Below, piece after piece: positions 7,861 through 46,796 of a stretch of 46,796 bases of DNA; position 1 is the first letter of the stretch, and each line of letters begins with the position of its first letter. Position numbers and translations under genes: made by a program. The stretch comes from Candidatus Woesearchaeota archaeon (GTDB taxonomy: Archaea > Nanobdellota > Nanobdellia > Woesearchaeales > ARS49). A model generated the notes under the pieces. That model searched no databases. It was not told the DNA's origin and worked only from the letters and a program-made list of their open reading frames with translations. Where the stretch lies: contig WJJT01000041.1 of NCBI GenBank assembly GCA_014729555.1, positions 1 to 46,796 of the forward strand, read 5' to 3'.

Positions 7861-7912
7861 TGTTATGGTTATGTGGGGAAACTTTATAAATCTTAAGTTA
7901 CTTTCTGAATTT

Positions 7913-10962: not shown

Positions 10963-10968
10963 TCTTAT

Positions 10969-13666: not shown

Positions 13667-13744
13667 ATTAACTCAACCTCCTGTTAGCTTTCTTTTGTTA
13701 TGCTTAAAAAGGGCAGGAAACATGTTCTATTTGCCCTTTTAAAG

Positions 13745-13789
13745 ATCAGCAAAGAAGGAGTTTTATATATTTTAACCTTCTTTGCTGAT
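13745..13789. repeat. Perfect 14-bp inverted repeat enclosing a TATA-like loop
   Basis: atcagcaaagaagg (13745-13758) / ccttctttgctgat (13776-13789); the loop contains ttttatatatttt. Confidence 0.85.
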
Positions 13790-14563
13790 TTCGCGAAAAT
13801 AACTTTTTACGATTTTTTGGTATCCTTTTGGTATGCTTTCTTCATAGCTTGCGTCTGTTGATGCTTTTATCTCTGTCGGCACTGTGCTCCTGAATTTCCT
13901 GTGCTCTGGCTCTTTTGTCTTGCTTATGTCTGCGTCGCTTTTTATGGGGTTCAGCTCTAGCTGAAGCTGCTCATTTCCGAGTTCTGCTATTGATTTTTCT
14001 CCGTATATATCGTCTTCATCAGGGTCTCCCTCCTCAAATGCAAGCAGTGTCTTGTCTATTTCATACTCTTTTGAGTTCTTGCTGAATTCTTTTATCTCCT
14101 CTATTGCCTTGTGTGTGTCAAGGAATCTTACATTGTATGCTGATGCCCCTATTATGAGGAATGCAACAACGAACAGCAGGAACAGCTCTCTTGAGAGTTT
14201 TCCAAAGCTGAAGAAGTATGATGTCATTGTGTGCTTCATTCCTTTTAGCACGTCCTTGTTCAGGCTCTCTACTATTTCATATTCCTTGTCTGTGTTGTCT
14301 GCTGCTGTTATTAATTGTTCTTTTAGCTCTGGGACTTTTTCCTCTACATATCTGTATGTCGTGTTTTTTCTTCCGTGGTATGCATGCGCTATTGCGTATA
14401 TGCCTGCTGGTATGAATGAGTAAACCCATGGAAGTGTCAAGAGAAAGAACACCAGGTTTGACACAAGAAACACTACGAGTGTGTCAAGAAACCACGCGAG
14501 TACAGTTATCTGCAGTAATGTGAGTTTCAGTTCCCTTAGTGCTTGTTGTATTGGTTTGGCCAT
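13772..14563 (-). CDS. Membrane protein of the MoxR/VWA cluster, unknown function
   Basis: Hydrophobic pairs near the N-terminus and at LFLLFVVAFLIIGASAYNV; cotranscribed arrangement. Confidence 0.75.
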   Translation of the reverse strand: MAKPIQQALRELKLTLLQITVLAWFLDTLVVFLVSNLVFFLLTLPWVYSFIPAGIYAIAHAYHGRKNTTYRYVEEKVPELKEQLITAADNTDKEYEIVESLNKDVLKGMKHTMTSYFFSFGKLSRELFLLFVVAFLIIGASAYNVRFLDTHKAIEEIKEFSKNSKEYEIDKTLLAFEEGDPDEDDIYGEKSIAELGNEQLQLELNPIKSDADISKTKEPEHRKFRSTVPTEIKASTDASYEESIPKGYQKIVKSYFREISKEG

Positions 14564-14566
14564 TTT

Positions 14567-15112
14567 TTAGCATGTGTTTTCATCATCATCTGCTGTGTTT
14601 TCAAGGCAGTCTATTAAGTCCTGAAGATCGCTTACTGTTTCCTGCAGCTGGTCTTTGTCGTCTTTTAGTATGTCGTTTTCCAGTGCAAGCGCCTCTTTCT
14701 CTGTTTCAAGCTGGTTTGCCAGTGCTTTTTTCGCTGCAAGGTCGTTTTGTGTCTTGTGCAGTGTTTGTTCTGTTTTCTGGAGCTCTGTCTGCAGTTCATC
14801 TTTTTCTGTTGTCAGTCTTTTCTTTTGCTGTTCAAGGCTCTCTTTTTCTGTTCTTACTTCTGTGTATTGCCCTGACAACTGCTCCTCTCTCTGCGACTTG
14901 ATAGACAGGTCATCGCTTAATTTTTTCAGCTCGAATTGTTTTGCTTCAAGCTCGTCAGATATCTTGTTCAGCTGTTCGAGTTTCAGGGTGTATGCCCCGT
15001 TTATCCTGTCAAAGTTCAGCTGGAAGTATACTGTTGCCCCGACCAGTGCTGCTGCGCTGAAGATTATCAATAACAGCAGGAGCAGGTTTGCGTTTCGTGT
15101 TATATAGCTCAT
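14567..15112 (-). CDS. Single-TM coiled-coil protein
   Basis: TM LLLLLIIFSAAALVGATVYF followed by a long heptad-like coiled coil. Confidence 0.78.
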   Translation of the reverse strand: MSYITRNANLLLLLLIIFSAAALVGATVYFQLNFDRINGAYTLKLEQLNKISDELEAKQFELKKLSDDLSIKSQREEQLSGQYTEVRTEKESLEQQKKRLTTEKDELQTELQKTEQTLHKTQNDLAAKKALANQLETEKEALALENDILKDDKDQLQETVSDLQDLIDCLENTADDDENTC

Positions 15113-15129
15113 TTTTTCACCAGTTCTTA

Positions 15130-17514: not shown

Positions 17515-19313
17515 ACATCCCCCCTCATTTTGATGTACATTATTTCCAGCAGTATTATTATTCCTGCTGCAAGTATCAGTAATGGCTCTAGTTCTAGTTT
17601 TCTTGTCTCTTTTACCGGTTTTAGCTCGAATTCTGTTGATTTTGCTCCAAGTATTGTTTCTGCGTTTATGTCTGATTCTTTTTCATCAAGCAGGTTTGCT
17701 GCGATTTTTCTGTCTTCAAGTTCATAGATTCCTGAGTTTTCCAGTATTATTGTTGCCTGTTTTACTGTTTTTACCGGCGTCTTTACTGCCTGCTCTCCTT
17801 CAAGTATCAGCGTGTCTTTTGTTTGGTAGTTCAGGTTTTTAAGGTCTAATTGTCCTGCGAGGTATCTCAGCAGCTCTGTCCAGAATATTGGGTAGCTGGG
17901 GGAGTACTTGAAGTCTGCTGTGCTTTCTGGTATTCCGTAATACACTATTTTTCCGCTTCCTGCTTTTCCAAGTGATATTATTGTGTCATTTCCAAGGGAT
18001 ACGATTGGGGTGAATCTCTTGTTTTGTTCTTTTGTTTTAAAGTGTGTTTTTATGCTTCCAAAGTCTATGTTTTTTGTGAACTTGTTAAGTTGTTCTACAG
18101 ATGCAAAACCGCCTTTTCCTTTTTCGGTTATTTTCAGCGGCAGCAGGTTTTTGTAGTTTATCTTGTCAGAGTTGTCCTGCACATGCACTACAACGCTTGC
18201 CCCGTTGTTTTCAACTGTGTGGTGTAGTGCGTCAAATGTTCCTGGAAGTATTTCATTCATGTCTATGTTGTGAAGTATGTAGACATCATACCCCTCTACA
18301 GGCACTACTGGCGGCTTTGTTATTGTTGCTTTTACATCTCCTGATGCCTCTAGTGCGTTTTTCAGGAATACAGATGCATTGTTTGTGACAAGGGCTGCTT
18401 TTGTTTTTTCTGTCTCTGGGGCGCTCAGGTATGCTAGGTTGTCTGTCTTAAAGTCGTCATCTGCTATTAATAGCATTTGTGTTATGCTGTTTGGTGTCTT
18501 GAATGTGAATGTTTCAGTGCTTTTTGCTCCAAGGTTTAGTTCTTTTTGATAGTCTCCTACCTTTAGTGTTGCGGTTCTTGCTGTGTCATCAAAGTTTTTT
18601 ATGTATACTGTTGCCTCTTCCCTGTCTGCTGCAAGGTCTATTATGCCTATGTTTGATGCTTTTTTCTCTGCCACATTCACAAAGTTTACTGCAAGCCCTT
18701 TTGCTTCTATTATTGATTTTGCTATGTTTGGTTCCTGGCCTCCTGTGTTTATGAAGTCGCTCAGCACTGTTACTGCGCCTTCTTTTCCAAGTGCTTCTCC
18801 TGCGAGTATTATTGAGTCTCCTATTCTTGATGTTGATTCTGTCGGCTGTGCCTTGTTTATGTATTTTGCTGCCTCTGATGCTGTTGCCTCTTTCACGATT
18901 ATTGACGGGACTTCTTTTGCAAGTATTATTGTGTTTTTTGCTCCAAGCATCTGTTTTGCCTTGTCTTTTGCCTTTTCAAACCTGCTGTATTTTCCTTCCA
19001 GGGCCTGCATTGAGGCGCTTGCATCAAGGACTATGACTGTGTTTTGTGCTGTTATGTCCTGCTGGTAGTTTGTGTATGGCTTTGCTATGCTTATTGCAAG
19101 AAGCAGGAGTATCAGGAGTTGTATGAGAAAGAGCCAGTCTCTTATGAATTTCTTGAAAAATGAGCTTAATTTGTTTCTGCCAGATGTCTGTATGAAGAAC
19201 ATGAGGCTTGGAATCTCTATTGTCTGCGGTCTTGGCCGTATTAAATAGAGCAGAATAAGAGGAATGAAACTTATCAGTGCTAATAATCCAATCATGCTCC
19301 CTATATGTATCAC
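17511..19313 (-). CDS. BatA-like N-terminal TM plus VWA protein
   Basis: IGLLALISFIPLILLYLIRPRPQTIEIPSLMFF; VIVLDASASMQALEGKYSRFEKAKDKAKQML; C-terminal TM; overlaps the next gene. Confidence 0.88.
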   Translation of the reverse strand: MIHIGSMIGLLALISFIPLILLYLIRPRPQTIEIPSLMFFIQTSGRNKLSSFFKKFIRDWLFLIQLLILLLLAISIAKPYTNYQQDITAQNTVIVLDASASMQALEGKYSRFEKAKDKAKQMLGAKNTIILAKEVPSIIVKEATASEAAKYINKAQPTESTSRIGDSIILAGEALGKEGAVTVLSDFINTGGQEPNIAKSIIEAKGLAVNFVNVAEKKASNIGIIDLAADREEATVYIKNFDDTARTATLKVGDYQKELNLGAKSTETFTFKTPNSITQMLLIADDDFKTDNLAYLSAPETEKTKAALVTNNASVFLKNALEASGDVKATITKPPVVPVEGYDVYILHNIDMNEILPGTFDALHHTVENNGASVVVHVQDNSDKINYKNLLPLKITEKGKGGFASVEQLNKFTKNIDFGSIKTHFKTKEQNKRFTPIVSLGNDTIISLGKAGSGKIVYYGIPESTADFKYSPSYPIFWTELLRYLAGQLDLKNLNYQTKDTLILEGEQAVKTPVKTVKQATIILENSGIYELEDRKIAANLLDEKESDINAETILGAKSTEFELKPVKETRKLELEPLLILAAGIIILLEIMYIKMRGDV

Positions 19314-31510: not shown

Positions 31511-32149
31511 GTGGTAACAATCGACAAAGTAGACTTGATTCACAAGTTTGTTCAGACATATAATTCTGCACAAGATAGTATTGATGCAAACAGGATGGAT
31601 GAGGCTAAGCAGAAGTACAGTGAGCTTATGTCTGTCTACAAACAGATTTCTGGCTCTGACCTGGAGTCTGTGCATAAAGAGCTTGCTTATGACCAGGTCA
31701 TGAAGGTCTTTAATGGTGTCAGGGGCATGAAGCCAAGGCAGAATATTAATTCAAAGTCTATTGCTGTTGCTGTTGTTATCATTATCATAAGCCTGGTTAT
31801 TTTCATTAAGCCGGAAATTATTGGCATGGTTGCTTTTGAAGCAAATCAGGCGCCTGTCTGGACTGGTGACGGCAACCTTTTTGTGATTACAGGAGTGTCT
31901 GAGAGTTCTATGTTTGTTGGAGGTACAGGCAGGACAATAAACCTGGATGCTTTTTTCAATGATGCCAATGGTGATGAATTGACTTATCTTGCAACGTCCA
32001 CAGACGGACTGAACGTGAAGATTAGCGGGAATCACCTTACTTTTCTTCCTGAGCCGGGTGTTTTTGGGGAGAGGACAGTCACTGTTGTTGCTTCTGATGG
32101 AGAAGAAGTTGTTCAGCAGGATCTTTTGGTGAGGATTGTCAGGAGATAA
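31511..32149 (+). CDS. TM protein with extracellular cadherin/Ig-like domain
   Basis: GTG start after aaaaagg; cytosolic helices, TM SIAVAVVIIIISLVIFI, then INLDAFFNDANGDELTYLATSTDGLNVKISGNHLTFLPEPGVFGERTVTVVASDG. Confidence 0.78.
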   Translation: MVTIDKVDLIHKFVQTYNSAQDSIDANRMDEAKQKYSELMSVYKQISGSDLESVHKELAYDQVMKVFNGVRGMKPRQNINSKSIAVAVVIIIISLVIFIKPEIIGMVAFEANQAPVWTGDGNLFVITGVSESSMFVGGTGRTINLDAFFNDANGDELTYLATSTDGLNVKISGNHLTFLPEPGVFGERTVTVVASDGEEVVQQDLLVRIVRR

Positions 32150-32307
32150 ATTGCTAATGCTGCGCTGCGTTCCGCTCCTTTAACCGCTTGAAAACCAGTT
32201 TATCAAATTCGTACAAAACACTAAGAACTTCGCAGGCGGCATTAAGAGCAAAGTTTATAAATAAAACCTCTATTCAATTTCTTATTTGTGTAAAAAGGGG
32301 GATTTGA

Positions 32308-35300
32308 TTGAAATTACTTAGATTTGCAGCCATTTTCATGTTGTTTCTTGTAATTACTCTGCCTGTTTGTGCTGCACAATCTCTTGAGATCAAGAGTTTT
32401 GCTGGAAAGGATAATGTTCAGGGTTATGCTCGGCCTGATGATTCTGTTACAATGCAGGTTGAGGCCCTGATTCCGCGTGACTTGGTTATCAGTGAGTCGC
32501 AAGTGCAGATCTGCAGGGACAGCCTGTGTTCTTTTCCAGATTCCTGCACTCCTGGAGAGTCTTTTACAAAGGATATTTACAATACCTGTGTTTACAGGGA
32601 AACTTTTACTGATGAAACAGGAATTTTTCCTTATTCTGTCAGGCTCTCAAATGATGATGGCAGGCCTGTTAAGGCTGTCTCAACAGAGTTGGGCATTGAC
32701 AAGCTTGCTCCAAGAATTTTAAAGTTCAGCATAACCCCTGAAGTGGCAGGCGGCACTGCTTTTATTGAGATTGCTGCTCAGGATTATGGCTCTCTTCTTG
32801 GTGATGCAAGTTACTGCACTGGCATAAAGCAGGTTGATTTTTATGATGCAGATACTGGAAAGACTTTGTTCACTAAAGAGTTTGGTTATGAAGAGTGTGA
32901 TATAATAGATTCTTTTGAATACACTCACAAGACAGGCAGGAAGTCTGAAAAAATTAATTTGTGTGCAAAGGCTGTTGATTTGTTTGGGCAGGAGAGCGAG
33001 CCTGTCTGCAATGATTTTGTTTATGATGAAGAAGGCCCGAGGTTTGTCAGCCTTGGCCTGGCTGACAAAGAAGGCAATCCCATAAGCCATATTCCCAGTT
33101 CTGGAATGCCTGTTGATGTTGTTGTTGAGATTGATGATGTTTCAGAACTGCAGAGTGTTACTGCCGACCTCTCAAGGATTTCTGGAAAATCCTCTGACAA
33201 GAACAGGGAGTTTGGTTACAAGAGAGACAATAAGTTTTATTGGTCTAATTTCCAGGTCAGTCCTGATACTGTTTGTTCTGGTGATGTAAAGGCAGTTGAT
33301 GTGCTTGGCAATAAGGGCTCTGCATCTCTTGAGTGCAGTATTCGTGTTGATGATAAAGGCCCAGAGGTTCAGGAAATCACCTCTAGTTATGAGGATTATG
33401 TTGGCCAGCCTGTTATTGCTCCGGGTGCACAGTTGAGGGTGAAGATTGTTGAAGAGGATGTTGGGCTTTATAAGAATGAAATGTATATGGACTTTAGTGA
33501 GATTGGTCTTGGCACTCTTCAGGCAGATTCTTGTGAAAAAAAAGATGCTTTCTGGATGTGCTACTGGAATGACATCAGCCCTAAAGTCAGTGATGGTGAT
33601 TATCAGATCAGGATTACAGAGGATTCAAGAGATGATTTAGGCAATAAGATTTTCAAAGAGGCGAGCCTGGATGTTGTGGTTTACACCAAGGCTGCAAGGA
33701 TTACTGCTGTGAGCCAGTATCCTGTTGCCCCTGCTTATGATAATATTCTTGAGTTTACTTTGCGTGTTGAGAATTCAAAGACAGAGCCTGATGTTTTTGT
33801 TGATGCCTCTTCAATTAGTTCTGATGCTTATCCTAAAGAGGCTTCCTGCACCAGCGCTGGCATTGATGAGTGGGAGTGTTATGTTGATGTTGACCTGCTT
33901 AATCAGATGTATAGGAAGGAAACAATTACTTTTTTTACTAAATCAGGGGAGTCCCGGCAAGAGGTTCTTTTTGAAATCACAGTGTATGAACCAGAACCAG
34001 AGGGCGGTGCTGATTTTTACACTTTAGCCAGCACAAGAATAATGCCTAAAAAGGGTTTTGACAAGAGGCTTGTTTATAATATTCCTGCTCCTGTTTACAT
34101 TCAGCCAAAATTAAGCAAGAAGTCAGGGGATCCTGATGTTTCCATACTTGAGACAAGTGCAGAGTGCACTGCTGATGGAACATCTGAGATTTATTTGGTT
34201 CCTGGCAATTCTGAAAATCCTTACATTGTTGTCAAGAGTTCTCCTGCTATTGCAGAGCAGGACTCTCCTGTTCAGGTTGACTGCACTCTTTCTTTAAGAG
34301 TCAGGCAGGGCCAGAGGGTCTTTAAGAATTTAGAGACAGAACAGTTTAGTGTTAAGATTCCTGTTTATAATAATCCTTTGGGAACAATCAGGGAGAATGC
34401 TCAGGCCCAGATTGATGGTATTAACAATAGGGTTGAGGATTTGCAGAAGAGAACAAAGAGATGGTCTGATATTAATGATTGGGTTGGTACGATTGTTTGG
34501 GGTGCACAGTCACTGGCGCAGGCAGATGCTGTTTGGGCTTATGTTGGCAGTGCTCTTTGGTTGATTGCAGTGGTGTTTTATGAGCTTAAGTCTGTTCCTT
34601 ATATTGGTCCTGTTCTTAAGGCGCTTTCAAAGGTGCTCTGGAAAGGCATTGCCTGCGGTCTTATATTCACAGAAGCACACACCTTTGTTTTGGATTACAT
34701 CTGGAATCCTGGAATTGTTGGAACTGAAATTTTTTCAGCTGATTTGGATGTTTCTGCGAGCAAGTTATGGACTACCCTGATTAAGACTGTCTCGATTATT
34801 TATTCATGCCAGTTGTGTGATTACAGCTCTACTTTGTATGCCGGAACAAAAAAGATTATTTATGGTGACACGATATTTAATGTCGGCTCAAGCCAGGGCA
34901 AACCCACAGAGCTTGAGAGATTTACTGTTTATGATTGGGATCCTTACAGGAGCATTCATGTTTCAATGGGCTGCTTGTGTGTTCCTGGAATGGTTTACAA
35001 TATGAGAAAAGAGGTTCAGGTCAATTGTATTTATCGTAATTGCATTGAGCAGAGTGCAGAGCTTGGCCTGCCTTTTGATTCCTGCCAGCAGACTTTCAAA
35101 GAGCAGAATTGCCTGTATGTTGATGGTGCTGCCTGGCGTGTTGCAGGCGGTTCTGGAATTGCTTTTACAATGAACATGCTGCTGACTTTTATTTTGGATC
35201 ATCTGCCTTTGATGGCTGCAAGCAAGGCCTGGAGTTATGTGTGCGACCCTGACTGCGGTGCATTTGGCAGGGAGACAGAAGAAGGAGAAAGCAAGGGCGG

Positions 35301-35517
35301 TGATTGCGGCAGGTATGGCATGGCTTCTGTAAAAGGAAGTGGTGAATCTGCTTATCCTGAGCAGTGCAGGGATTATCCTGCAGATGACTGGCGTGTTCCT
35401 TTGTGCGGTGTCTGGACAAGCACAATGCTTTTGATGGAGACTGATTTTTTTGGCTCTAACAAGTTTGACTGGAGCAAATACACTGCTGATTTAGAAGGAG
35501 AGGATTTTTGTGATTAA
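32308..35517 (+). CDS. Giant secreted/membrane protein, Ig-like repeats plus C-terminal TM and Cys-rich domain (paralogue of 43185-46400)
   Basis: Signal peptide; SLEIKSFAGKDNVQ; CLCVPGMVYNMRKEVQVNCIYRNC. TTG start at 32308. Confidence 0.82.
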   Translation: MKLLRFAAIFMLFLVITLPVCAAQSLEIKSFAGKDNVQGYARPDDSVTMQVEALIPRDLVISESQVQICRDSLCSFPDSCTPGESFTKDIYNTCVYRETFTDETGIFPYSVRLSNDDGRPVKAVSTELGIDKLAPRILKFSITPEVAGGTAFIEIAAQDYGSLLGDASYCTGIKQVDFYDADTGKTLFTKEFGYEECDIIDSFEYTHKTGRKSEKINLCAKAVDLFGQESEPVCNDFVYDEEGPRFVSLGLADKEGNPISHIPSSGMPVDVVVEIDDVSELQSVTADLSRISGKSSDKNREFGYKRDNKFYWSNFQVSPDTVCSGDVKAVDVLGNKGSASLECSIRVDDKGPEVQEITSSYEDYVGQPVIAPGAQLRVKIVEEDVGLYKNEMYMDFSEIGLGTLQADSCEKKDAFWMCYWNDISPKVSDGDYQIRITEDSRDDLGNKIFKEASLDVVVYTKAARITAVSQYPVAPAYDNILEFTLRVENSKTEPDVFVDASSISSDAYPKEASCTSAGIDEWECYVDVDLLNQMYRKETITFFTKSGESRQEVLFEITVYEPEPEGGADFYTLASTRIMPKKGFDKRLVYNIPAPVYIQPKLSKKSGDPDVSILETSAECTADGTSEIYLVPGNSENPYIVVKSSPAIAEQDSPVQVDCTLSLRVRQGQRVFKNLETEQFSVKIPVYNNPLGTIRENAQAQIDGINNRVEDLQKRTKRWSDINDWVGTIVWGAQSLAQADAVWAYVGSALWLIAVVFYELKSVPYIGPVLKALSKVLWKGIACGLIFTEAHTFVLDYIWNPGIVGTEIFSADLDVSASKLWTTLIKTVSIIYSCQLCDYSSTLYAGTKKIIYGDTIFNVGSSQGKPTELERFTVYDWDPYRSIHVSMGCLCVPGMVYNMRKEVQVNCIYRNCIEQSAELGLPFDSCQQTFKEQNCLYVDGAAWRVAGGSGIAFTMNMLLTFILDHLPLMAASKAWSYVCDPDCGAFGRETEEGESKGGDCGRYGMASVKGSGESAYPEQCRDYPADDWRVPLCGVWTSTMLLMETDFFGSNKFDWSKYTADLEGEDFCD

Positions 35518-35995
35518 GAGCGCTTTTGTTGTGCTGGCATTTGCTGTTTTGTTTTTGCTAGTTGTGCTTGCAAATACTATTACTGCTCCTACTCCTACAA
35601 CTCCCTGGTATCAGGTTGAGGATTGGGAAAAAGAGGTTTGCTCTAAATGGGGCGGAACTCAGTTCTCTGGACAGGCTGTTGTGACCCTGGGCAGGAAGCT
35701 GTCTTTTGGTGCCTTGAGTGCTACAATGCAGGCTAAGAAGTTCAGGACTCCTGAGAATTATTATTTGTATGAGGTTGGCTGGTATATTGATTCTTTTGCA
35801 GAGGACATGGATTATGATGTTATAATGCTTGATCCTGAAAAGCCTGATGTTTTCAAGCGTGTTGTTTCTGGCAGGCTTGTTCCTGATGCAGGAACAACTG
35901 GTTTTGAGACGTATAATTTGACGCAGGATTTTACTCATTTAAGGTTTAAGTACACTGGAGGGGAGATGTTGATTCCGATAATAAGGGTGAAATGA
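35510..35995 (+). CDS. Small signal-anchored secreted protein
   Basis: SAFVVLAFAVLFLLVVLANTITAPTPTTPW; start overlaps the upstream stop. Confidence 0.7.
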   Translation: MIKSAFVVLAFAVLFLLVVLANTITAPTPTTPWYQVEDWEKEVCSKWGGTQFSGQAVVTLGRKLSFGALSATMQAKKFRTPENYYLYEVGWYIDSFAEDMDYDVIMLDPEKPDVFKRVVSGRLVPDAGTTGFETYNLTQDFTHLRFKYTGGEMLIPIIRVK

Positions 35996-35996
35996 T

Positions 35997-36761
35997 ATGA
36001 AGATGTTGTTTATTGAGAGTTTTAAGAAGATTGACAAGAAGTTTGTTTATGTTGTCTTGTTTGATTTATTGTTTTATGCAGGTCTTGCACTGTCTGTTGT
36101 TTTGTTTTCAAAGCTTTTGATTTGGGCATTTGGCTCTTTTCTGCAGATTCCTGGAAAACTGCTTGCCTTGTCAAAGATGACTGAGTTTTCACAGCTTGAG
36201 GCTGGTTTTGAGGGTGCTGGCATGCTGCTTGACCAGTTCAGGTCAAAGCTTGTGATTAGCTTTGCAGTGCTTTGGGTTTTGGTTGTTGCTGTGTTTACTT
36301 TTTTCAAGGGTTCTGCCTGGGCTTTTGTCTCAAAAACCCGGCTTGACAAGAAATATTTTATCAAGCTTCTAAAACTGAATTTATGGTGGTTTGGTGTTAT
36401 TGGATTGCTTGTGCTGGTTATTTTTTGGTTCACAAAGCCTGCTGCAACTGGCTTTTCTGTTTTGCTTTTGGCAGGTCTTTCAATATGCTTTACTGCTGTG
36501 TTTTATTCAGTCTTTGATCCAAAGAAGAGTGTCAGGGAGTTGTTTCAGAAATTATGGTATGTTGGTGTGGAGAGGATTTATTATTTTATTTTGCCTTTTT
36601 TGCTTGCAAAGGTTATCTTGATTTTATACTTGGGAATTATTGCTTTTATTGCAATGCTTGTGGTGCCTGATATTGCATTGTATGTCTTGTTTGCTTTTTT
36701 TGTTGTTTGGCAGGCCTGGTTCAAGTATTATATTTATTTGGTTGCGAGGGGCATTAAATGA
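35997..36761 (+). CDS. Multi-pass membrane protein
   Basis: Several hydrophobic segments, e.g. VYVVLFDLLFYAGLALSVVLF and LLAKVILILYLGIIAFIAMLVV. Confidence 0.75.
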   Translation: MKMLFIESFKKIDKKFVYVVLFDLLFYAGLALSVVLFSKLLIWAFGSFLQIPGKLLALSKMTEFSQLEAGFEGAGMLLDQFRSKLVISFAVLWVLVVAVFTFFKGSAWAFVSKTRLDKKYFIKLLKLNLWWFGVIGLLVLVIFWFTKPAATGFSVLLLAGLSICFTAVFYSVFDPKKSVRELFQKLWYVGVERIYYFILPFLLAKVILILYLGIIAFIAMLVVPDIALYVLFAFFVVWQAWFKYYIYLVARGIK

Positions 36762-39307
36762 ATAAAAGAGCGCAGGTTACGGTTTACATAATCATCGGGA
36801 TTGTTATCCTGTTTTCAATAGCCACTGCTATTTATGTTGCAAACAGGATGCTTGCCCAGCCTGGAGAGATTTCTGCTGTTGACAGGCCTATACAGGATTA
36901 TGTTGAGTCTTGTGTTCAGCAGGTTGGAAAAGAGGCTTTGGTTAAGATTGGGGCTCATGCTGGGTATCTTGACCCAGGTGCTCCTGAGCATGATATTTTT
37001 GTCTCTGATGCTCCTGCAGAGGGTGATGCCCTGCTTGTCTCTGAGATTACAAGAGAGGCTGTTCCGTATTGGTTTTACATGTCCACTCAAAATGACTGCA
37101 GGGAGTGTTTGCTTGAGTCTCTTCAGCCCCCTATTGAAAAAATAAAGGAACAGGTTGATGGTTATGTTGAATTGAATCTTGAGAAGTGCCTTAATTCTTT
37201 TGAGCCTTTTCTTGAGCAGGGTTATGTTTTTGAGACTGGTGATGTGGGTTCAGATGTCCTGCTTGCAGAGGAGAGCACAAGGTTTGTTGTTGATTATCCT
37301 GTTGAAATCAAGAAGCTTGATACAACCACCAGGATTGAGCAGTTTGCTGCTGTTGTTGATGTTCCTTTCAAGAGGATGTATGATCTTGCCAGCGAGATAA
37401 CTGCGCAGGAAAGGGACAAGGCTTTTCTTGAGAGTGTTTTGTTTCATTTTATTTCTCTGCATACTGGCCTGGAGATGTCAAAGCTTCCTCCTCTTGGAGG
37501 ACTTACTCATGACAAGGTTCTTGTCACGTGGTTTAAGCCAATGGTTGAGGATAATGTTAATCAGTTGCTGCTTAGTTATGTTCCTTTGATTCAGTTGTAT
37601 AACACAAAAGATGCAGAACAGGTTTCTTCAGGAGAGAATTCTTTTGAGCAGGGTTTTTTCAAGGCACTTTATCTTAAGTTTTTGAAAGAGAAGTATCCTT
37701 TTGATGTTGATTTTATGTATTTTGATTGGCCTTTTTATTTTGATATTACCCCGAGAAATGGTGATGTCCTGACTGGAGAGGTTCATGTCCAGGAGTTTCC
37801 TTATAATTTTGCTCCTGCGTTCCAGACTAATTATTATGAGTTTTATTATGATGTCTCTGCTCCTGTCCTGGTTGAGATTCGTGATTCAGATGCCCTGAAG
37901 GGAGAGGGTTATTCTTTCTTGTTTGCTCTTGAGGCCAATGTCAGGGATAACAAGGATTTTATTGAGTGGAACAAGGGAGAGGGGACGATTGGTTACTGGG
38001 ATCCTGCTGATGCTGTTGTTGAGAAAAAGGAGTCAGAGACCACTCCTGGCATTTGTTCTGAAAAATCAGGAAACTGGTTGTGTGATATAACTGGAAAGTC
38101 TTATTCAGGGCAGCTGCAGTGTGTTCAGAATTGTTATGTCTCAAAGACAAAGCGGGTTCCTTTCAGGCCTGTGAAGAAGTTGTTTAATGATGAAGAGCAA
38201 AAAGTCAGCAACACAATCAAGATTTCTGTTCTTGATGCCGTTACAAGGCAGGGTGTTAATGAGGTTGGCATATTGTTTACCTGTGGCAGGTATCAGTCTG
38301 CTGCCTTGGGAGGAACTAATCTCAAAGGCGAGTTAAAGACAAAAATGCCTGTGTGCATTAATGGCCAGTTGTCTTTTGACAAAGAGGGTTATGCAAAAAA
38401 GATTATTCCTTTTACTGTCAAGCCAGATGACAGGAAAGATGTTGAGGTTTTTCTTGAGCCAGAGGCTGTTCTCAGGACTGTGATAAAGAAGTACCCGATT
38501 CAGATAAAGAATTTAAGAGAGCTTGAGTATGAGCAGGAGCCAGAGCCTCAGCTTTCCACAAGTTATGCTGATATTGATTCCTGGGAGTCTCTTGGCATGT
38601 CTGCCTTGACTGGTTTTTCAGACCAGGTGATTTCTCCTCTTAAGTTTAGTATGCATTGGGAGGAAGAGGGTTATAAGGTTGGAAGAGAGCAGGAGAACAT
38701 GATGATTTATGACAGGTATTGCTGTGATGCGCCTGAGTCCTTGAATGAAAGTTATAAGGCGATTTTAATGGTTGAGAAGATTCCAGAGGCTCCTCTTGAG
38801 CCGAATTATTTTCAGACAGTTATGCTTGACGGTGTTCAGCAGGGCAGCATTAGTTTGGTTCCTGGTGTTTACAAGGTTACTGGTATGCTGGTTGACAAGG
38901 AGGGTTTTGTTATTGAGCCTGGCTGTCAGGAGATTTGTCTTGAGTATGACACTGATACTGGGTATTATGCAGAAGAGATTGTTGAGGGAACAACAGACAT
39001 CTTTAATGTTCTGCCTGATGAAAAGCCTGACTGCAAAAAGTGGGGTTCTTTTCCTGAGAAAGAGATTGTTGCAAGGCCGTCCTTGATGGGAGGTGTTCAG
39101 CTTGATAATGCCACTGGCTACTGGAACATAACTCGCGCAGACTTGAACAAGGGCGCTGTTGAGTTTTATTTTATCCAGACACTTAAGCCTACCTGCACTG
39201 TTGTCCAGGATTGTGTTCTTGATGTGTGTGTTGATGTCGGAGAGATTCAGGCCACTGGCCCTTACTCATTAAAGTATAGAGAATATCTTGAGCCAGAGTT
39301 TAGGTAG
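36758..39307 (+). CDS. Giant prepilin-like protein (class III signal peptide) with carboxypeptidase-regulatory-like domain
   Basis: MNKRA/QVTVYIIIGIVILFSIATAIYV; APVLVEIRDSDALKGEGYSFLFALEANVRDN shared with 40954-43188. Confidence 0.8.
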   Translation: MNKRAQVTVYIIIGIVILFSIATAIYVANRMLAQPGEISAVDRPIQDYVESCVQQVGKEALVKIGAHAGYLDPGAPEHDIFVSDAPAEGDALLVSEITREAVPYWFYMSTQNDCRECLLESLQPPIEKIKEQVDGYVELNLEKCLNSFEPFLEQGYVFETGDVGSDVLLAEESTRFVVDYPVEIKKLDTTTRIEQFAAVVDVPFKRMYDLASEITAQERDKAFLESVLFHFISLHTGLEMSKLPPLGGLTHDKVLVTWFKPMVEDNVNQLLLSYVPLIQLYNTKDAEQVSSGENSFEQGFFKALYLKFLKEKYPFDVDFMYFDWPFYFDITPRNGDVLTGEVHVQEFPYNFAPAFQTNYYEFYYDVSAPVLVEIRDSDALKGEGYSFLFALEANVRDNKDFIEWNKGEGTIGYWDPADAVVEKKESETTPGICSEKSGNWLCDITGKSYSGQLQCVQNCYVSKTKRVPFRPVKKLFNDEEQKVSNTIKISVLDAVTRQGVNEVGILFTCGRYQSAALGGTNLKGELKTKMPVCINGQLSFDKEGYAKKIIPFTVKPDDRKDVEVFLEPEAVLRTVIKKYPIQIKNLRELEYEQEPEPQLSTSYADIDSWESLGMSALTGFSDQVISPLKFSMHWEEEGYKVGREQENMMIYDRYCCDAPESLNESYKAILMVEKIPEAPLEPNYFQTVMLDGVQQGSISLVPGVYKVTGMLVDKEGFVIEPGCQEICLEYDTDTGYYAEEIVEGTTDIFNVLPDEKPDCKKWGSFPEKEIVARPSLMGGVQLDNATGYWNITRADLNKGAVEFYFIQTLKPTCTVVQDCVLDVCVDVGEIQATGPYSLKYREYLEPEFR

Positions 39308-39370
39308 TGTATTGCTGCTGTAATACCAAAAACTTTAAATATCCCTTAGTATATACAAATAAGCATACTC

Positions 39371-39404
39371 CCCATTATTCACGGCTTCGGTTGTGAATGA
39401 TGGG
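39371..39404 (+). promoter_or_regulatory. 12-bp stem-loop in presumptive 5' leader of NYN gene
   Basis: cccattattcac / gtgaatgatggg (one G-T wobble), loop ggcttcggtt; TATA-like ctttaaatat near 39333-39342. Confidence 0.65.
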
Positions 39405-39423
39405 ATTAATACTTTGACTTAAA

Positions 39424-39963
39424 ATGTTTGAAAAATCTGCTATTTTTATTGATGGAGGATACTTTAATAGACTTTTAAAGGAGTTTTTTGGTGGTGCTCA
39501 ATTCGATTATCTTAAATTCTCTAAAAGGCTGGGAGAACTTACAGGCACAGCTGTTTTAAGAACACACTACTATACGTGTATGCCCATTAAAAGGCAAGGC
39601 AACGAAAAAGATAAAGAAAGACACGCGAATATGCAGAGATTTATTACTAAATTGCATCGTTTGCCCAGGTTTTCAGTTAAGCGCGGCAGGTTGCAGTTCA
39701 TCAATGGTGTATTCAAGCAGAAGATGGTTGATGTGCATATGTCCTTGGATTTAGTGGATATGAGTTTTGATAATCAAATTCAGCACGCGATTATAGTTGC
39801 AGGCGACTCAGATTTTATTCCTGCTATTGAGCGGGCAAAAAATCATGGCACAATAGTACACTTGTTTTATCATCCGAATACAGTGCATCATCAATTGTTG
39901 GACATGGTTGATGAATTGCATGTTATTGGCGAGTCATTGATTACTTCTTGTAAACTGGATTAA
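39424..39963 (+). CDS. NYN/LabA-like (DUF88) PIN-fold ribonuclease
   Basis: SAIFIDGGYFNRLLKEFF; KQKMVDVHMSLDLVDMSFDNQIQHAIIVAGDSDFIPAIERAKNHGTIVHLFY. Confidence 0.9.
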   Translation: MFEKSAIFIDGGYFNRLLKEFFGGAQFDYLKFSKRLGELTGTAVLRTHYYTCMPIKRQGNEKDKERHANMQRFITKLHRLPRFSVKRGRLQFINGVFKQKMVDVHMSLDLVDMSFDNQIQHAIIVAGDSDFIPAIERAKNHGTIVHLFYHPNTVHHQLLDMVDELHVIGESLITSCKLD

Positions 39964-39986
39964 TCAAAAGCAGTCCAAAATCAAGG

Positions 39987-40694
39987 TTAAGTCATTGTGA
40001 TGTTTAGTGATAGAAAATTTTTGCAGGACTTTTTGATTTCTTCATCTTTTATGTTGTCACAGGTCTTGCGGCCCTGCACTGCAAAGTTGAAATAGCACTG
40101 GTCCCTCACTGTTTGCTCGCTTATTTTTGCGCATAGTGCAGGCTTTGCTGCTGCGCCTGCGATTTGGACATAACAGTTGTCTTTTTCCATTTTTGTATTT
40201 AAATCACTGCATAGGGCTTCTGCCCTGTCTGGCTCTGTCAGGCTTATCTCTTTTATTTCCTCTATTTTCATTGATGCCTCAAATTCCTGTGTTTCTTCAA
40301 TTTTGATTTCTGGTATTTTTTCTGCAGGAGGGACTGGTATTTTTTCTAGGTCTATTTCTTCTTTTTCAATTATTTCTTCTGCAGGAATCTCTTCTTTTTC
40401 TGGCATTTTTATTTCTTCTTTTGGAACAAGGATTTCTTTTTCAGGTGCCTGTATTTTAATGTAAACAAGAATGCTCAGCACTATTATCACTGCAGCAACA
40501 AGTAGGATTGCTATCCAGGCAAGTGGTATTCCTGGCTTTGCTTGTTTTATTGCTGTATTAACATCTGTTTTGCTGTGTCCCTGCCTTAGAAGGCTCTGTT
40601 TTATTTCCTTCTTGCTGTATCCTGTTTTTAATTGGTCTTTGACATATTTAGTAAGGCTTGTGTTTACCATATTTTCAAGGCGTGTTATTTGCAT
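39987..40694 (-). CDS. Single-TM protein with cytosolic helical N-terminus and exterior Cys-repeat domain
   Basis: LTKYVKDQLKTGYSKKEIKQSLLRQGHSKTDVNTAI; TM; PE-rich linker; CSDLNTKMEKDNCYVQIA...CAKISEQTVRDQCYFNFA. Start may be Met at 40670. Confidence 0.75.
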   Translation of the reverse strand: MQITRLENMVNTSLTKYVKDQLKTGYSKKEIKQSLLRQGHSKTDVNTAIKQAKPGIPLAWIAILLVAAVIIVLSILVYIKIQAPEKEILVPKEEIKMPEKEEIPAEEIIEKEEIDLEKIPVPPAEKIPEIKIEETQEFEASMKIEEIKEISLTEPDRAEALCSDLNTKMEKDNCYVQIAGAAAKPALCAKISEQTVRDQCYFNFAVQGRKTCDNIKDEEIKKSCKNFLSLNITMT

Positions 40695-40715
40695 TATAAA
40701 TATCTTTGTGTTAGT

Positions 40716-40892
40716 ATCTGGTAAGTAGTATGTGGTAAGTGGCTGGTAGTTGCCGAATGCAATTAGTATGTAATTGGTAGTGAGTAGTTGCCGAATACCA
40801 ATTCCCGAATAACTACAAACAACAAACTAAAGACTACTAACCAAAAAACTACAAACTAATAACTACTGACCAAAAGCTAGCAACCAATTATC
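40716..40892 (+). repeat. Dispersed intergenic repeat, copy 3 (expanded, at least two partial units)
   Basis: ggtagttgccgaatgcaatta and gagtagttgccgaataccaattcccgaataactacaaac, followed by degenerate aactac/actaac-rich sequence. Confidence 0.7.
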
Positions 40893-40953
40893 GTTAAATT
40901 TATAAATGGGACAAAGATAAAATCATATATTATAGAAAAAAAGGGTTGATTGT

Positions 40954-43188
40954 GTGGTTTTTAAAAAGGGGCAGGTTACAATATTTATAATTATAGGGAT
41001 TATTCTTGTGATTAGTGTAGGTGTTTTTATCTATCTTTATCAGGCAGAGGTCATCAGGCCTTTTGAAGAGGTTGTTGTTCCTTCTGTTGAAAAGGCTCCT
41101 TCAGAGATAAGGCCTGTTCAGGATTTTGTCACTGCTTGTGTTGAGGCTGTTGGAAAAGAGGGCCTGAGAAAGGTTGGTGATTATGGCGGTTATGTTGACA
41201 CTTCGCAGTTCTTGTATAATCCTTTTATTCCTACAGAGGGTGATGCAGTGCAGTTCAGTCCTGATTCTGACCTGATTATTCCGTATTGGTGGTATTTGAA
41301 GTCATCAAATGAATGCACTGGTGAGTGTTCTTTTTCAAGCATGAGGCCAGAACTGCACAGGGCTTCTGGAAAGGTTAGTATTGAGTCACAGCTTGACCAG
41401 TACATTAATGAGAATCTTGAGGTTTGTCTTGCTGGTTTTGCTCCTTTTATTGAGCAGGATTTTGAGTTCAGGGAGCTTGGTCCTGTTGATACAGAGACAA
41501 CTGTTGCTAAAGAGCAGGTTTATTTTCTTGTGAAGTATCCTTTGAGGATTTCAAGGGGAGACCAGAGCTGGAATCTTAATGAGTATCTTGCTGAGCTTGA
41601 TTTGAATCTTGGAAGGATTTATGAGCTTGGCACTGAGATTGTTAATCTGCAGGCAGAGCACCAGATGCTTGAGAAATTTACTATTGAAATGATTGCTTCT
41701 TTTTCAGGTGTTGACAAGAACATGCTTCCGCCTACAAATGATTTTGATGTCTCTATTGGCCAGGGTGTTATCTGGTTTAAGTCAAGGATTGCTAACGGGC
41801 TTAAGGAGGTTCTTGCGAGTTATGTTCCTATGCTTCAGATTGGCAACACCCGGCTTTACATGCCTGTTGATGCTCCTGAGGACAAGGATGTTCGTGATAA
41901 AGATTTGTACAGTGTTATTTACAATAGGAACATGCTGATTCCTCTTGAGAATGAGTATAGGGATGTTTCTGCCACTCTTTCTTACATTCCGTGGTGGAAT
42001 ATTTATTTTGATGCCAATTGCGAGGGAGAGGTTTGCATGGCACAGAGTGTGTCATCTAATCTGAGGTTTCTGCAGATTGGTTTGCAAAAGTATGATTTTG
42101 CTTATGACGTGAGTTATCCTGTTCTTGTTGAGCTGAGGAATCCTGATGCCTTGAAGGGAGAGGGTTATTCTTTCAAGTTTTTTATTGAGGCTAATGTGCG
42201 GAATAATTTTCCCATGCCTTCTGTTTTTGAGCCTCTTGAGGCTTATGAGCTTTCATTCAACAGCATGCTTTGTGACCAGCAGCAGAAAACTTCTGGTAAT
42301 GTGACTGTTTTTGTGCGTGATGCAAGAAACCAGAAAGGTGTTGATGAGGCTCTTGTCGGTTATACCTGCGGCAGGGAGTCATGCACTCTTGGACAGACAT
42401 CTGATGGTGTTCTTGTGGCAAGGCTTCCAAGGTGTATTGGTGGTATGCTTTCTGCAGCTAAGATTGGTTATGATACAAGGATGGTGCCTTTGGATGTTCT
42501 TGATGACAGGTCTATGGATGCAGAGATTTTGCTTGAGCCTTACAGGTATGTGGATTTTAGTGTAAAAAAATACTTGTTGAGCAAGGGTGCAAGAGAGTGG
42601 AGTCTTGATGCTAACAAGACTGTTAATCAGGCCATGGATGAGGATACGATTATTATGCTGAGGAAAAGGGTGGACAGGTTCTCTGCTCCTTTTGCTGCTG
42701 TTGCAGAGGTTTGCGGCATGCCTAATGCAAAATCTCCTGCTGCCTGCGGCTCTCCTCCTTCTGAAAGGTCAGAGGGCATTGCATTGGTTCCTGGAGAGTA
42801 TCAGGTCAGCATTTATTCAATGAAGTTTCCGCAGCCAAGCATCACCATTCCAAGGGATTTGAGGACTGCTGGCAGTGGCTTGGTTAAAGAGGAGTTTTTT
42901 GTTCCAGAAGAGCCGATTGTTTTTGATGAGAGCAATCCGTTTCCTTCTGGTTTTGCAAATTTTAACTGGAGCCTGACTGCAGAACAATTGGACAGCGGTA
43001 ATGCTGTTGAGTTTTATTATATCAATGTTGCTTTGGACAAGGTTCCTAAGCATAGGAGAAAGATTGAGGACCTGGGCCAGATTGGAAAGGCTCTTGAGTA
43101 TTCCTCTCTTTACAAAAAGGCGCTTGTGCCAAGGGTTTTTCGCAGGTCAAAGGCTAAAGAGAGCACTATAACTGTTGAGATAGAATGA
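40954..43188 (+). CDS. Giant prepilin-like protein, paralogue of 36758-39307
   Basis: GTG start; MVFKKG/QVTIFIIIGIILVISVGVFIYL; YPVLVELRNPDALKGEGYSFKFFIEANVRNN. Confidence 0.82.
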   Translation: MVFKKGQVTIFIIIGIILVISVGVFIYLYQAEVIRPFEEVVVPSVEKAPSEIRPVQDFVTACVEAVGKEGLRKVGDYGGYVDTSQFLYNPFIPTEGDAVQFSPDSDLIIPYWWYLKSSNECTGECSFSSMRPELHRASGKVSIESQLDQYINENLEVCLAGFAPFIEQDFEFRELGPVDTETTVAKEQVYFLVKYPLRISRGDQSWNLNEYLAELDLNLGRIYELGTEIVNLQAEHQMLEKFTIEMIASFSGVDKNMLPPTNDFDVSIGQGVIWFKSRIANGLKEVLASYVPMLQIGNTRLYMPVDAPEDKDVRDKDLYSVIYNRNMLIPLENEYRDVSATLSYIPWWNIYFDANCEGEVCMAQSVSSNLRFLQIGLQKYDFAYDVSYPVLVELRNPDALKGEGYSFKFFIEANVRNNFPMPSVFEPLEAYELSFNSMLCDQQQKTSGNVTVFVRDARNQKGVDEALVGYTCGRESCTLGQTSDGVLVARLPRCIGGMLSAAKIGYDTRMVPLDVLDDRSMDAEILLEPYRYVDFSVKKYLLSKGAREWSLDANKTVNQAMDEDTIIMLRKRVDRFSAPFAAVAEVCGMPNAKSPAACGSPPSERSEGIALVPGEYQVSIYSMKFPQPSITIPRDLRTAGSGLVKEEFFVPEEPIVFDESNPFPSGFANFNWSLTAEQLDSGNAVEFYYINVALDKVPKHRRKIEDLGQIGKALEYSSLYKKALVPRVFRRSKAKESTITVEIE

Positions 43189-46100
43189 AGATGCAAGTAA
43201 GGTTTGCGGCATTTGTTATGATTTTTCTAGTTTTGTGCATGCCTGCTGCTTTTGCGCAGAGGCTTGATGTCACAAGGTTTAGTGGAAAGGATAATGTTGA
43301 AGAGGTTATCAGTTCAGAGGGTGATGAATTGCATGTTGTTGTTTCTGCAGAATTGCAGGGAGACCCAAGCCTTGATGTTGCAAGGACAAGGCTTTTGGTG
43401 AGGCATGCTGGGGAAGAAGAGTATTTTAGTGAGTGCTCTCGCCAGGATTCATTGTATAAGTGCACTTATGTTTCTGATGACTTGATTAGTTTTGGTTCTG
43501 AGGATTATGTTATTGTGTTGCTTGATGCAGATAATAATGAGCTTAAGTCTGTCAAGAAAGTGTTGGGTGTTGACAGGATTGCTCCTGAGATTTTGCAGTT
43601 CTCTGTTGAGCCTCAGATGTCAAGGACTGGTGAGATGGATATTTCTTACCTGATTGAGGATTATGGGGCTTCTGTTGGTGATACTGCTTTTTGTTCAGGT
43701 GTTAAGGAGATTAGGATTACTGCTGGCGAGTCTCTTGTCAAGAAGGTTGATTATGATAATCCAAAGGTTTGTGATTCTGAAGAGCAGAGAGTTGATTATA
43801 AATATTCTACAGCTGACAATTTTGTTGGTTTTGACGTGTGCATTATTGCAGAGGATTACCTTGGCCAGGTAAGTGATGTTGAGTGTAAATCTTATAGCAT
43901 TGATAACTCTCCTCCGAGGATTAAGTCTGTTCAGTTCAGTGATAGCAGGGGTTATGCCTTGTCTCATATCAAGACAGGACAGGAGGTTGTTGCAGATATG
44001 TCTGTTGTTATTGAGGGTGAGGATGATGTTGTTCTTGAGAGTGTTAAGGCAGATCTTTCAAAGATTCATCCTGGTGCTGGTGTTCGTGCTGCAGATGATG
44101 TGATTGAAGATGCTTTTATCTGGAATGATGTTAAGATTACAAGCCCTTCAACGTGTGAGGTTCCTGTGAGTGCAAGTGATGAGATGGGTAATAATGCCTC
44201 TGCTGTTTTAGAATGCTCTCTTCCTGTTGATGATACTGGTCCTGTTGTTCAGGCTGTTTATGCAGGTGCTGCAGGTGCTAATGCCACTCCTTTGATTGGT
44301 GTTAATGGAACTGTTTATGTTGACTTGCTTGAAGAGGGTGCTGGGATGGACAAGGCAGATGCTTTTCTTGATTTGCATAATCTTGGGCTTGGCACTGTTG
44401 TTCAGGCAGATGAGTGTGTTGATCAGGGTGCTAATGTCTGGAGATGCGCATGGCAGGTTGTTCCTGATGTTGGCACTGGCAGGCATAAGATTACTGTTAT
44501 CGACGGCACAAGTGATGATCTTGGAAATTATGTTGATTCTCGTGTCAGCCAGGAGGTTCTTGTTGACACTACTCCTCCTGATATTAATTCAGTCGATATT
44601 ACTTTTATTCATGAGAATGCTGATTACGGTCCTTATGCTGTTTATGGAGACACTATTGAGTTCTTGTTCAATGTCACAGATGGTATGGAGGGTTATGCTA
44701 ATCTCTCTATGATTGGCGGGAATTATTCCCCTGCTTTGGAGTGCACTGGTGATTTTTGCAAGTTTTATGCCTTGATTGATGTTTCAGGCCCTTTGAATGC
44801 TACTATTCATTTTGATTTTTTTGACCTGGCTGGTAATCAGGAGTCTTATGATCATAGTTTCTTTGTTTATGGTGTTCTCTTGAATGACACTGTCACGAAT
44901 TACTGGGATGCGCGCGTGAGGTGCTCTCCTAAGATGATTGACAGGAATACTGCTGAATTGTATAATCACCCGCTTTACTGTCATATTAAGCTGACTCCTA
45001 ATAATCCAGAGGCAGAGACTGTTTTTGTCTCTCTTGGAGAGCTTGGCGAGTGTATTGGGGATGATGTTGGTTATGTTGTTGACCTGGAGGTCATAAATAA
45101 TAATTTTGGCTCTAGAGACCCGTATGCTGTGTTTACTCTTGCTGCAACCCCTTTTGAGATTAATGATTTGAAGTTTAATTGTCCTTTGTATGTTGCCACG
45201 CGTGTTGGTGATTTTTTCTCTCCTGTTGTTGAGGTTGAGAACATAACTGCAAAAACAGAGTTTTATAATCTTCCTTATGGAGAGGCTTATGATAATATTG
45301 AGGATAGCATAAAGGATGCTATGGAAAAGGCAATGAAGAACTGGGAGTGGGTCGGCACTGTTGAGGATGTAATGAACAGTTTGAGGTCTATGTGCCATAC
45401 AAAGAACACGGTTACCTCTGCTTTTGCTGTTCTTGAGTCTGCGATTCATTTGTTGATTGTAGCTGCTGCAGCTGTCCGTCTTATCAAGAAAAAGCCTGCA
45501 GAAGCTTTGTTAGACCAGGCGCAGTATCTCTGCAACAAGGCAGTCGGCCCTCTTGAACAATTATTTACACCTGAGCCTGAAAAAGACGAAGAAGGAAAAC
45601 CCAAGCCTAAGAAAAAGTCAATCACGCGCGGAGACTTCCAGAGCTTGTTTAATTTGCTGGATTTGGCCTGCAAGATGGCTAACTGTCAGTTGTCTACAGA
45701 AGAGGCTAAAGAGTATGAAGAGGAGATTGTTGTTGGAGCTTCTTATTTTTTTGGGTCAGGCCAGGAAGATGCCTGCAGGGCGTACAAAGAGACTGTTTCA
45801 GGAGCATACCTGGTTGATTATGATACACTTACTGAAGGTTCTGAGATTGGGGAGACAGAAAGCCCTGTTGATGTAAAGGAGAGTTTTATCGGCAGTCTTA
45901 TGTGCACGTGTCTTCCTGGAATAACTTATAATTTGAACAAGATCAGGCAGATTCATTGCGGTTATGCTTATTGTCTTGGCAAGAGGGTTCTTGAAGAGGG
46001 CTTGCAAAGGTCTTACTGCAGTAATGAAAAGGCTTACTTGACTTGCAATTATGTCACTGGCCAGATTTTTGAGGTGTTTCCTTTTGCTTCACTTGTTGAC

Positions 46101-46400
46101 AGGTATGTTTCAGTGATTCAAGAGGCTTATGCTAATCCTATTTCCTTGGTTACTATGCTGTCCTCTCTTGTCTGCGGAGGCAACAGGGGTACTGGAGGGT
46201 TTTATGATTACTGCATGGATAGGGGTTCATTTGAGGTTGAAGCAGGCAACATGGGTATGTATTTAATCTGCTCTGTTCCAAAGACTGCTGCAAAGATTGG
46301 TGATGCTGTTGCAAGCTATCAATTGAGTGAGTCAGAGCGTTTTGGTGCAAAGCCTGTTTCAGAGGATTATTGTGACATGGCAGAGGAGATGCTGGAATGA
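43185..46400 (+). CDS. Giant secreted protein with Ig-like repeats and Cys motif, paralogue of 32308-35517
   Basis: Signal peptide; RLDVTRFSGKDNVEE; CTCLPGITYNLNKIRQIHCGYAYC; ATG overlaps the upstream stop. Confidence 0.82.
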   Translation: MKMQVRFAAFVMIFLVLCMPAAFAQRLDVTRFSGKDNVEEVISSEGDELHVVVSAELQGDPSLDVARTRLLVRHAGEEEYFSECSRQDSLYKCTYVSDDLISFGSEDYVIVLLDADNNELKSVKKVLGVDRIAPEILQFSVEPQMSRTGEMDISYLIEDYGASVGDTAFCSGVKEIRITAGESLVKKVDYDNPKVCDSEEQRVDYKYSTADNFVGFDVCIIAEDYLGQVSDVECKSYSIDNSPPRIKSVQFSDSRGYALSHIKTGQEVVADMSVVIEGEDDVVLESVKADLSKIHPGAGVRAADDVIEDAFIWNDVKITSPSTCEVPVSASDEMGNNASAVLECSLPVDDTGPVVQAVYAGAAGANATPLIGVNGTVYVDLLEEGAGMDKADAFLDLHNLGLGTVVQADECVDQGANVWRCAWQVVPDVGTGRHKITVIDGTSDDLGNYVDSRVSQEVLVDTTPPDINSVDITFIHENADYGPYAVYGDTIEFLFNVTDGMEGYANLSMIGGNYSPALECTGDFCKFYALIDVSGPLNATIHFDFFDLAGNQESYDHSFFVYGVLLNDTVTNYWDARVRCSPKMIDRNTAELYNHPLYCHIKLTPNNPEAETVFVSLGELGECIGDDVGYVVDLEVINNNFGSRDPYAVFTLAATPFEINDLKFNCPLYVATRVGDFFSPVVEVENITAKTEFYNLPYGEAYDNIEDSIKDAMEKAMKNWEWVGTVEDVMNSLRSMCHTKNTVTSAFAVLESAIHLLIVAAAAVRLIKKKPAEALLDQAQYLCNKAVGPLEQLFTPEPEKDEEGKPKPKKKSITRGDFQSLFNLLDLACKMANCQLSTEEAKEYEEEIVVGASYFFGSGQEDACRAYKETVSGAYLVDYDTLTEGSEIGETESPVDVKESFIGSLMCTCLPGITYNLNKIRQIHCGYAYCLGKRVLEEGLQRSYCSNEKAYLTCNYVTGQIFEVFPFASLVDRYVSVIQEAYANPISLVTMLSSLVCGGNRGTGGFYDYCMDRGSFEVEAGNMGMYLICSVPKTAAKIGDAVASYQLSESERFGAKPVSEDYCDMAEEMLE

Positions 46401-46796
46401 AGTTTAAGATATTGTTTGTGGTTTTTGTTGTGGTTTTGTTAAGTGCGAGTGTTATTGCTGACGAGCCAAAGGTTAAAGTTAGTCATGCAGATAAAAGGCG
46501 TGCAAAAATTAGTGAAGTTGAGTCGCATACATCTAAAGGACTGATGTATATAGCGCCTGCTTTTGCTGGCCCTTTAGCCGCAGCTGTTAATATAAAAAGC
46601 ATTTCCAAAGGTCTTGAGCATTTTGAAAAGGCTAAAGCAGGAAAAGCTCAGCTTGAAAGGATGCGCACTAATATCTATGCAAGAGGCTGGTATTCTGTTT
46701 ATGATGTTATTGATGCTTATGAGGATTATTCTGGTATTAATCAATACAGTGCTCTTTTCTTTGGTGAGGAGTGGCTTGCTAAGAGGCGTAAGATGG
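46397..46796 (+). CDS. Secreted protein, truncated by window end
   Basis: ATGA overlap; MKFKILFVVFVVVLLSASVIADEPKVKVSHADKRRAKISEVESHTSKGLMYIAPAFAG...; open to the last base, not in ORF track. Confidence 0.75.
   Translation, partial: MKFKILFVVFVVVLLSASVIADEPKVKVSHADKRRAKISEVESHTSKGLMYIAPAFAGPLAAAVNIKSISKGLEHFEKAKAGKAQLERMRTNIYARGWYSVYDVIDAYEDYSGINQYSALFFGEEWLAKRRKM

Follow-up and report, generated by a model that had tools for sequence, protein, structure and literature searches.

Two modules of a candidate class III-leader surface complex in a Woesearchaeota genome and their distribution across a DPANN class

The genes at the end of this contig are best explained as encoding a surface complex that occurs here in two forms and goes back to the ancestor of most of a DPANN class, a huge group of tiny, probably host-dependent archaea. 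We tentatively read the complex as one anchored through class III leaders, which would probably be served by an engine encoded on another contig (C42) and might act in contact or adhesion. The surface location and the partnership of the proteins named here A, B and C rest on sequence features and synteny. In the open-licence literature, within the main-text portions available, we found no earlier description of the A-B-C cassette, and one may exist.

Gene order and the two modules

The window, that is, the whole stretch of 46,796 nucleotides analysed here, is the entire contig C29 of a Woesearchaeota MAG (1.04 Mb, 58 contigs). As it is a complete contig, the locus is truncated at position 46796; the contig ends within the X gene, and the rest of module I (X-C-A'-D) sits on contig C37. 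All genes reported by a first-pass annotation (B1, the small protein, the multi-pass protein, A1, A2 and B2) are present where it had placed them and in the sizes it claimed. The locus reads as follows:

31511..32149, plus strand: accessory membrane protein, 212 aa (Pfam Big_9, 5.4e-6; cluster c4 gene orders)
32308..35517, plus strand: B1 (module II), 1069 aa; signal peptide, Ig-like repeats, C-terminal Cys-rich helical core (32 Cys)
35510..35995, plus strand: S, small N-terminally anchored protein, specific to module II (cluster c5, 11 loci)
35997..36761, plus strand: C, multi-pass membrane protein with about 7 hydrophobic segments (cluster c2, 23 loci)
36758..39307, plus strand: A1 (module II), 849 aa; class III prepilin-like leader KRAQVTVYIIIG and large ectodomain
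39987..40694, minus strand: Z, convergent gene; helical N-terminus, one TM segment, Cys motifs
40954..43188, plus strand: A2 (module I), 744 aa; class III prepilin-like leader KKGQVTIFIIIG; AF2 pLDDT 87.7
43185..46400, plus strand: B2 (module I), 1071 aa; signal peptide, Ig-like repeats, Cys-rich helical core at residues 690-1071
46397..46796, plus strand: X (module I), 5' part only, ending at the contig end; a variant starts contig C37

The overlaps between these genes are genuine: B1 overlaps the gene of the small protein by 8 bp, and the overlap is 4 bp at C/A1, A2/B2 and B2/next ORF. The "short break" described between the two gene sets is not empty, as Z and a 179 aa NYN-domain gene lie in the gap between A1 and A2. 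The NYN gene was not seen in other loci, whereas of the 12 loci that have sequence past A, 11 have Z near the module II A gene and oppositely oriented to it. The upstream 212 aa protein, which combines a cytoplasmic helical part, one TM segment and an extracellular Big_9 Ig-like domain, precedes module II or I in 13 loci; its Big_9 match and the NYN match are the sole useful Pfam/NCBIfam matches at the locus. S carries the motif WYxVExWExxVC.

The proposed paralogy of the large proteins is far above chance, with 32% identity between A1 and A2 (615 columns, E 5e-75) and 28% between B1 and B2 (756 columns, E 9e-69). Expansion by duplication stands. What finds no support is a local duplication and rearrangement of one locus: the orders B-S-C-A and A-B-X-C-A'-D belong to distinct order-wide modules, with their A proteins in separate clades. 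Gene orders across 40 loci from 60 relatives define module I as A-B-X-C-A'-D and module II as B-S-C-A followed by the convergent Z. When 45 A proteins are placed in a tree, each syntenic label coincides with a clade (support 96 for I, 96 for II and 99 for A'), and A' joins A proteins from other orders with support 100. The B tree has long branches and splits I from II at 94, just below the tool's star level; the C tree gives no resolved grouping of modules. To judge from the sequences, modules I and II are anciently separated and distinct across the order, and recent local duplication is rejected on the A clades and, more weakly, on the B tree.

A MAG contig whose last gene is cut off and recurs in variant form on another contig invites the suspicion of a false duplication, arising as an assembly artefact or as mobile-element cargo. 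This we hold to be highly improbable, and for the core finding it is refuted: the order II then I recurs in an independent genome, G022, where the modules are adjacent and module I extends to A' and D; many genomes carry each module, several of them (G031, G034, G059) on different contigs; and a tblastn search with A1 against 50,697 phage records gave no match.

Following the X variant, contig C37 continues with C, an open frame without an ATG start, then A' (658 aa) and D (at least 1600 aa). The first 139 bp of C37 match window positions 46365-46503 exactly. Compared along their length, the X variants (window 46397-46796 and C37 1-447) share 139 identical bp, followed by about 120 bp of divergent sequence and 172 bp at 97%; strain variation, a tandem copy or a hypervariable cassette are alternative explanations.

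The proteins of the cassette

The N-terminus of protein A consists of K/R-G/A-Q-x-T followed by a hydrophobic helix (residues 4-34 in the AF2 model), the arrangement of a class III, or type IV prepilin-type, leader. The motif is present in 52 of 54 and 12 of 13 A proteins, in two sets that were not selected on it, and in 0 of 266 other proteins having an N-terminal TM segment; K/R/H-G/A-Q occurs in 45/45 aligned A rows, a set partly chosen on the motif. At position +5, those 45 rows hold 43 Phe and 2 Tyr, and no Glu as in pilins. With 650-850 aa, A is 3-5 times the normal pilin size and is not a small pilin subunit with Glu at +5; this size and the Phe/Tyr at +5 count against the reading that we favour, of a leader-anchored complex served by an engine.

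The AF2 model of A (pLDDT 87.7) comprises the N-terminal helix, a mixed alpha/beta region and beta domains toward the C terminus. Foldseek matched it in the PDB to CnaB, transthyretin-like, pilin Ig-type and carbohydrate-binding-type beta domains with poor global superposition. As a whole, A could not be equated with a known protein, the matches being generic beta domains such as CnaB and transthyretin-like ones at query-normalised TM-scores of 0.05-0.15. One designed protein matches the A profile at 3e-4.

Protein B has a signal peptide, Ig-like repeats and many invariant cysteines. Its Ig-like Big_3_3/Big_13 repeats are the named-family exception in B, Big_3_3 being found in 9 of 26 family members, and the sole exception in C is a Rifin match in one member; A, the B core and C otherwise match no named family in profile and sequence searches, in keeping with the first-pass view that the locus cannot be assigned to a named system. 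The C-terminal 382 residues of B2 model as all-helical with moderate confidence (AF2 74.6), and no known fold could be assigned to this core, which has no PDB Foldseek match below E 0.4. In two genomes (G022 and G007) the module II B is 474-491 aa long, about half length, with its own hydrophobic N-terminus, which suggests that the B core can stand alone. In a single member of the B family (alignment A5, loci L098-L172), the B architecture includes a cupredoxin-like domain (PF13473, 1.4e-9). Neither Pfam nor a convincing PDB match identifies C as a TadC-like platform, and the D proteins examined lack the B-type Cys-core motif that would make D a second B.

The beta domains modelled in A (CnaB/transthyretin-like and carbohydrate-binding-type), the Glucodextran_B and Big domains of D, and the class III leaders of Sulfolobus sugar-binding proteins would all fit a set of independent anchored surface enzymes or binding proteins, for example in polymer or nutrient capture, in which the leader is an anchor and no assembly takes place. 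We think this improbable, since no catalytic domain was found with Pfam in A, B or C and since A and B are strictly adjacent and share their module history; that adjacency and history instead suggest that A and B form a stoichiometric complex.

The bindosome of Sulfolobus, in which class III-leader sugar-binding proteins are served by the Bas ATPase/membrane protein, is a parallel by description, as there too large functional proteins rather than small pilins bear the leaders. It differs in that A has no visible solute-binding domain, and B and C have no known bindosome counterpart.

Distribution across the phylum

Among 198 genomes of the phylum with at least 80% completeness, A is present in 173 and the B core in 145; all genomes with B also have A, according to printed lists compared by eye. 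B matches outside the order are weak and, among the listed hits, mostly limited to the central Cys motif. An initial scan of the genome contigs with A1 alone as query gave no match. Within the set of loci collected with A as the sole criterion, 44 have B directly after A in the same orientation, and the two frames often overlap. The first-pass proposal of a surface complex in which prepilin-like and Cys-rich secreted proteins are inherited together would have been refuted by a lack of conserved co-occurrence of the two families; they do co-occur and adjoin across other genomes, and the proposal is borne out to that extent.

Other orders carry a minimal cassette made of an A'-type protein (~630-715 aa), a giant B-like Cys-core protein of 1200-2540 aa and C, which again lies 3' of the giant B. 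The multi-pass C is present in several cases (L226, L227, L235, L239), and the A-B pair is found in L228, L230, L231, L233 and L234. Whatever its function, the locus holds several protein families without a Pfam/NCBIfam match, one of them having the near-class-wide distribution given above.

Near-universal presence in the class would be well explained by a two-component S-layer or envelope lattice, with A as the membrane-anchored stalk and B (or D) as the Ig-like lattice protein. In the Sulfolobus S-layer, SlaB holds SlaA, and the likeness lies in a membrane-anchored partner and a large secreted Ig-domain partner, here encoded in one operon. The beta domains of A also match the SlaA/SlaB entry 8qox locally (E 1e-4, TM only 0.12-0.18), but this match is a generic beta-sandwich. 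An S-layer anchor has no need of a class III leader, but in A few features are conserved as well as that leader; genomes hold up to three A and two B paralogues, in several paralogous modules; the B core is undetected in many A-bearing genomes; and B has a Cys-rich helical core, unlike the SlaA/SlaB pair. We regard such a lattice, the main rival to a leader-anchored contact complex, as rather unlikely.

Candidate peptidase and assembly engines

The first-pass annotation saw no pilus ATPase or platform gene, and this holds for the window, where no such Pfam match was obtained among the scanned ORFs, and not for the genome. The latter encodes an A24 prepilin peptidase (G000:C9:406-720, E 1.2e-14, above cut-off), as do 58 of 60 relatives, and an ATPase with a candidate platform on contig C42 that were reached by T2SSE and T2SSF searches. 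The C42 ATPase is of TadA/GspE type and 753 aa long (Pfam T2SSE 2.4e-13; AfGspE 2oap 6.8e-30; CpaF 1e-19). Its 718 aa multi-pass neighbour resembles a divergent TadC-like platform, the T2SSF match being sub-threshold (18.4 bits vs a cut-off of 25.2). The set is completed by three small proteins of multi-pass type and a pair predicted to be cytoplasmic, of which one has coiled-coil-type matches, and no pilin-like gene was seen beside this engine in the window genome.

Pilin, ATPase and platform are not in one locus: no ATPase adjoins A within the window, and no case was found of A genes (on C29 and C37) lying next to C42-type engine genes. A platform ortholog (E<1e-150) occurs in 175 of 198 genomes, or 169/173 genomes with A vs 6/25 without it, as read by eye from the lists. 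When 30 genomes are placed on an RpoB tree, in which 12 inner branches are poorly supported, nearly all genomes lacking both A and the engine fall into one clade plus one pair, and A is absent without the engine in two lineages, so that the co-distribution comes down to about two concordant and two discordant events. Given so few events and such weak branches, the link between A and the C42 engine is suggestive only. Counted in its favour is a short helical N-terminal domain shared by Z (39987-40694) and the engine-locus protein h3 (L176 4701-5378), with E 1.3e-7 in the window genome and 8.6e-11 at best; the domain also matches two genes outside the h3 cluster. Counting against it is a second ATPase/platform pair on contig C31 (L193 2228-10292, minus strand), which has seven small single-TM pilin-like proteins of its own.

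The genome holds the class III leader, A24 peptidase, TadA-like ATPase and, as a candidate, the TadC-like platform found in archaeal type IV pili and Tad systems as far as Makarova et al. 2016 (PMC4858521) describe them in the text available. The differences are the 650-850 aa length of A, its Phe/Tyr at +5, the unlinked engine, and the extra Cys-rich B and multi-pass C. A parallel in gene content is the type IV pilus-like "locus 2" of DPANN archaea, including Woesearchaeota and Pacearchaeota, for which the available part of Hamm et al. 2024 (PMC11291902) gives a CpaF-type ATPase, a TadC-type platform, coiled-coil proteins and no listed pilins. The set on C42 resembles it in composition; what that part of the paper describes is engine loci, not an A-B-C cassette. 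A parallel by description is offered by the SPEARE-type giant proteins of Nanohaloarchaeota (PMC9563170, available part), which are likewise very large surface proteins in DPANN and have been proposed to act in cell contact, whereas B and D here have 1000-2500 aa and are operon-linked to a prepilin-like protein.

In the leader-anchored contact complex that we favour, the A24 peptidase would clip A, whose N-terminal helix would hold it in the membrane. B would be exported by Sec, fixed by disulfides through its helical core and docked on A, while C would form the base at the membrane. Assembly or movement of A would fall to the unlinked ATPase/platform, so that A may replace the missing pilins in a structure like a bindosome or a short filament; contact with other cells or surfaces might be made by the Ig-like ends of B and D. 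Modules I and II would be divergent versions, perhaps for different partners. It is a bolder and doubtful step to propose a class-wide DPANN surface organelle, a contact apparatus in which the prepilin-like A is the substrate of the pilin-less "locus 2" engine and presents the Cys-rich giant protein. If A is that substrate, the missing partner of the engine is found. How DPANN archaea contact their hosts is an open question, and the cassette is a good candidate for a part of cell contact.

Elsewhere in the window, positions 1-2537 hold a LamG-type (Laminin_G_3) protein truncated by the contig start and then a convergent Ser/Thr/Tyr-type kinase (Pkinase 8e-32). A 361 aa ORF on the minus strand (6973-8058) has no Pfam match at E 0.01 and may be no gene. 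On the same strand, positions 10315-19313 carry a gene run of MoxR AAA ATPase, DUF58, VWA, BatA-type, transglutaminase-like and DUF333 proteins.
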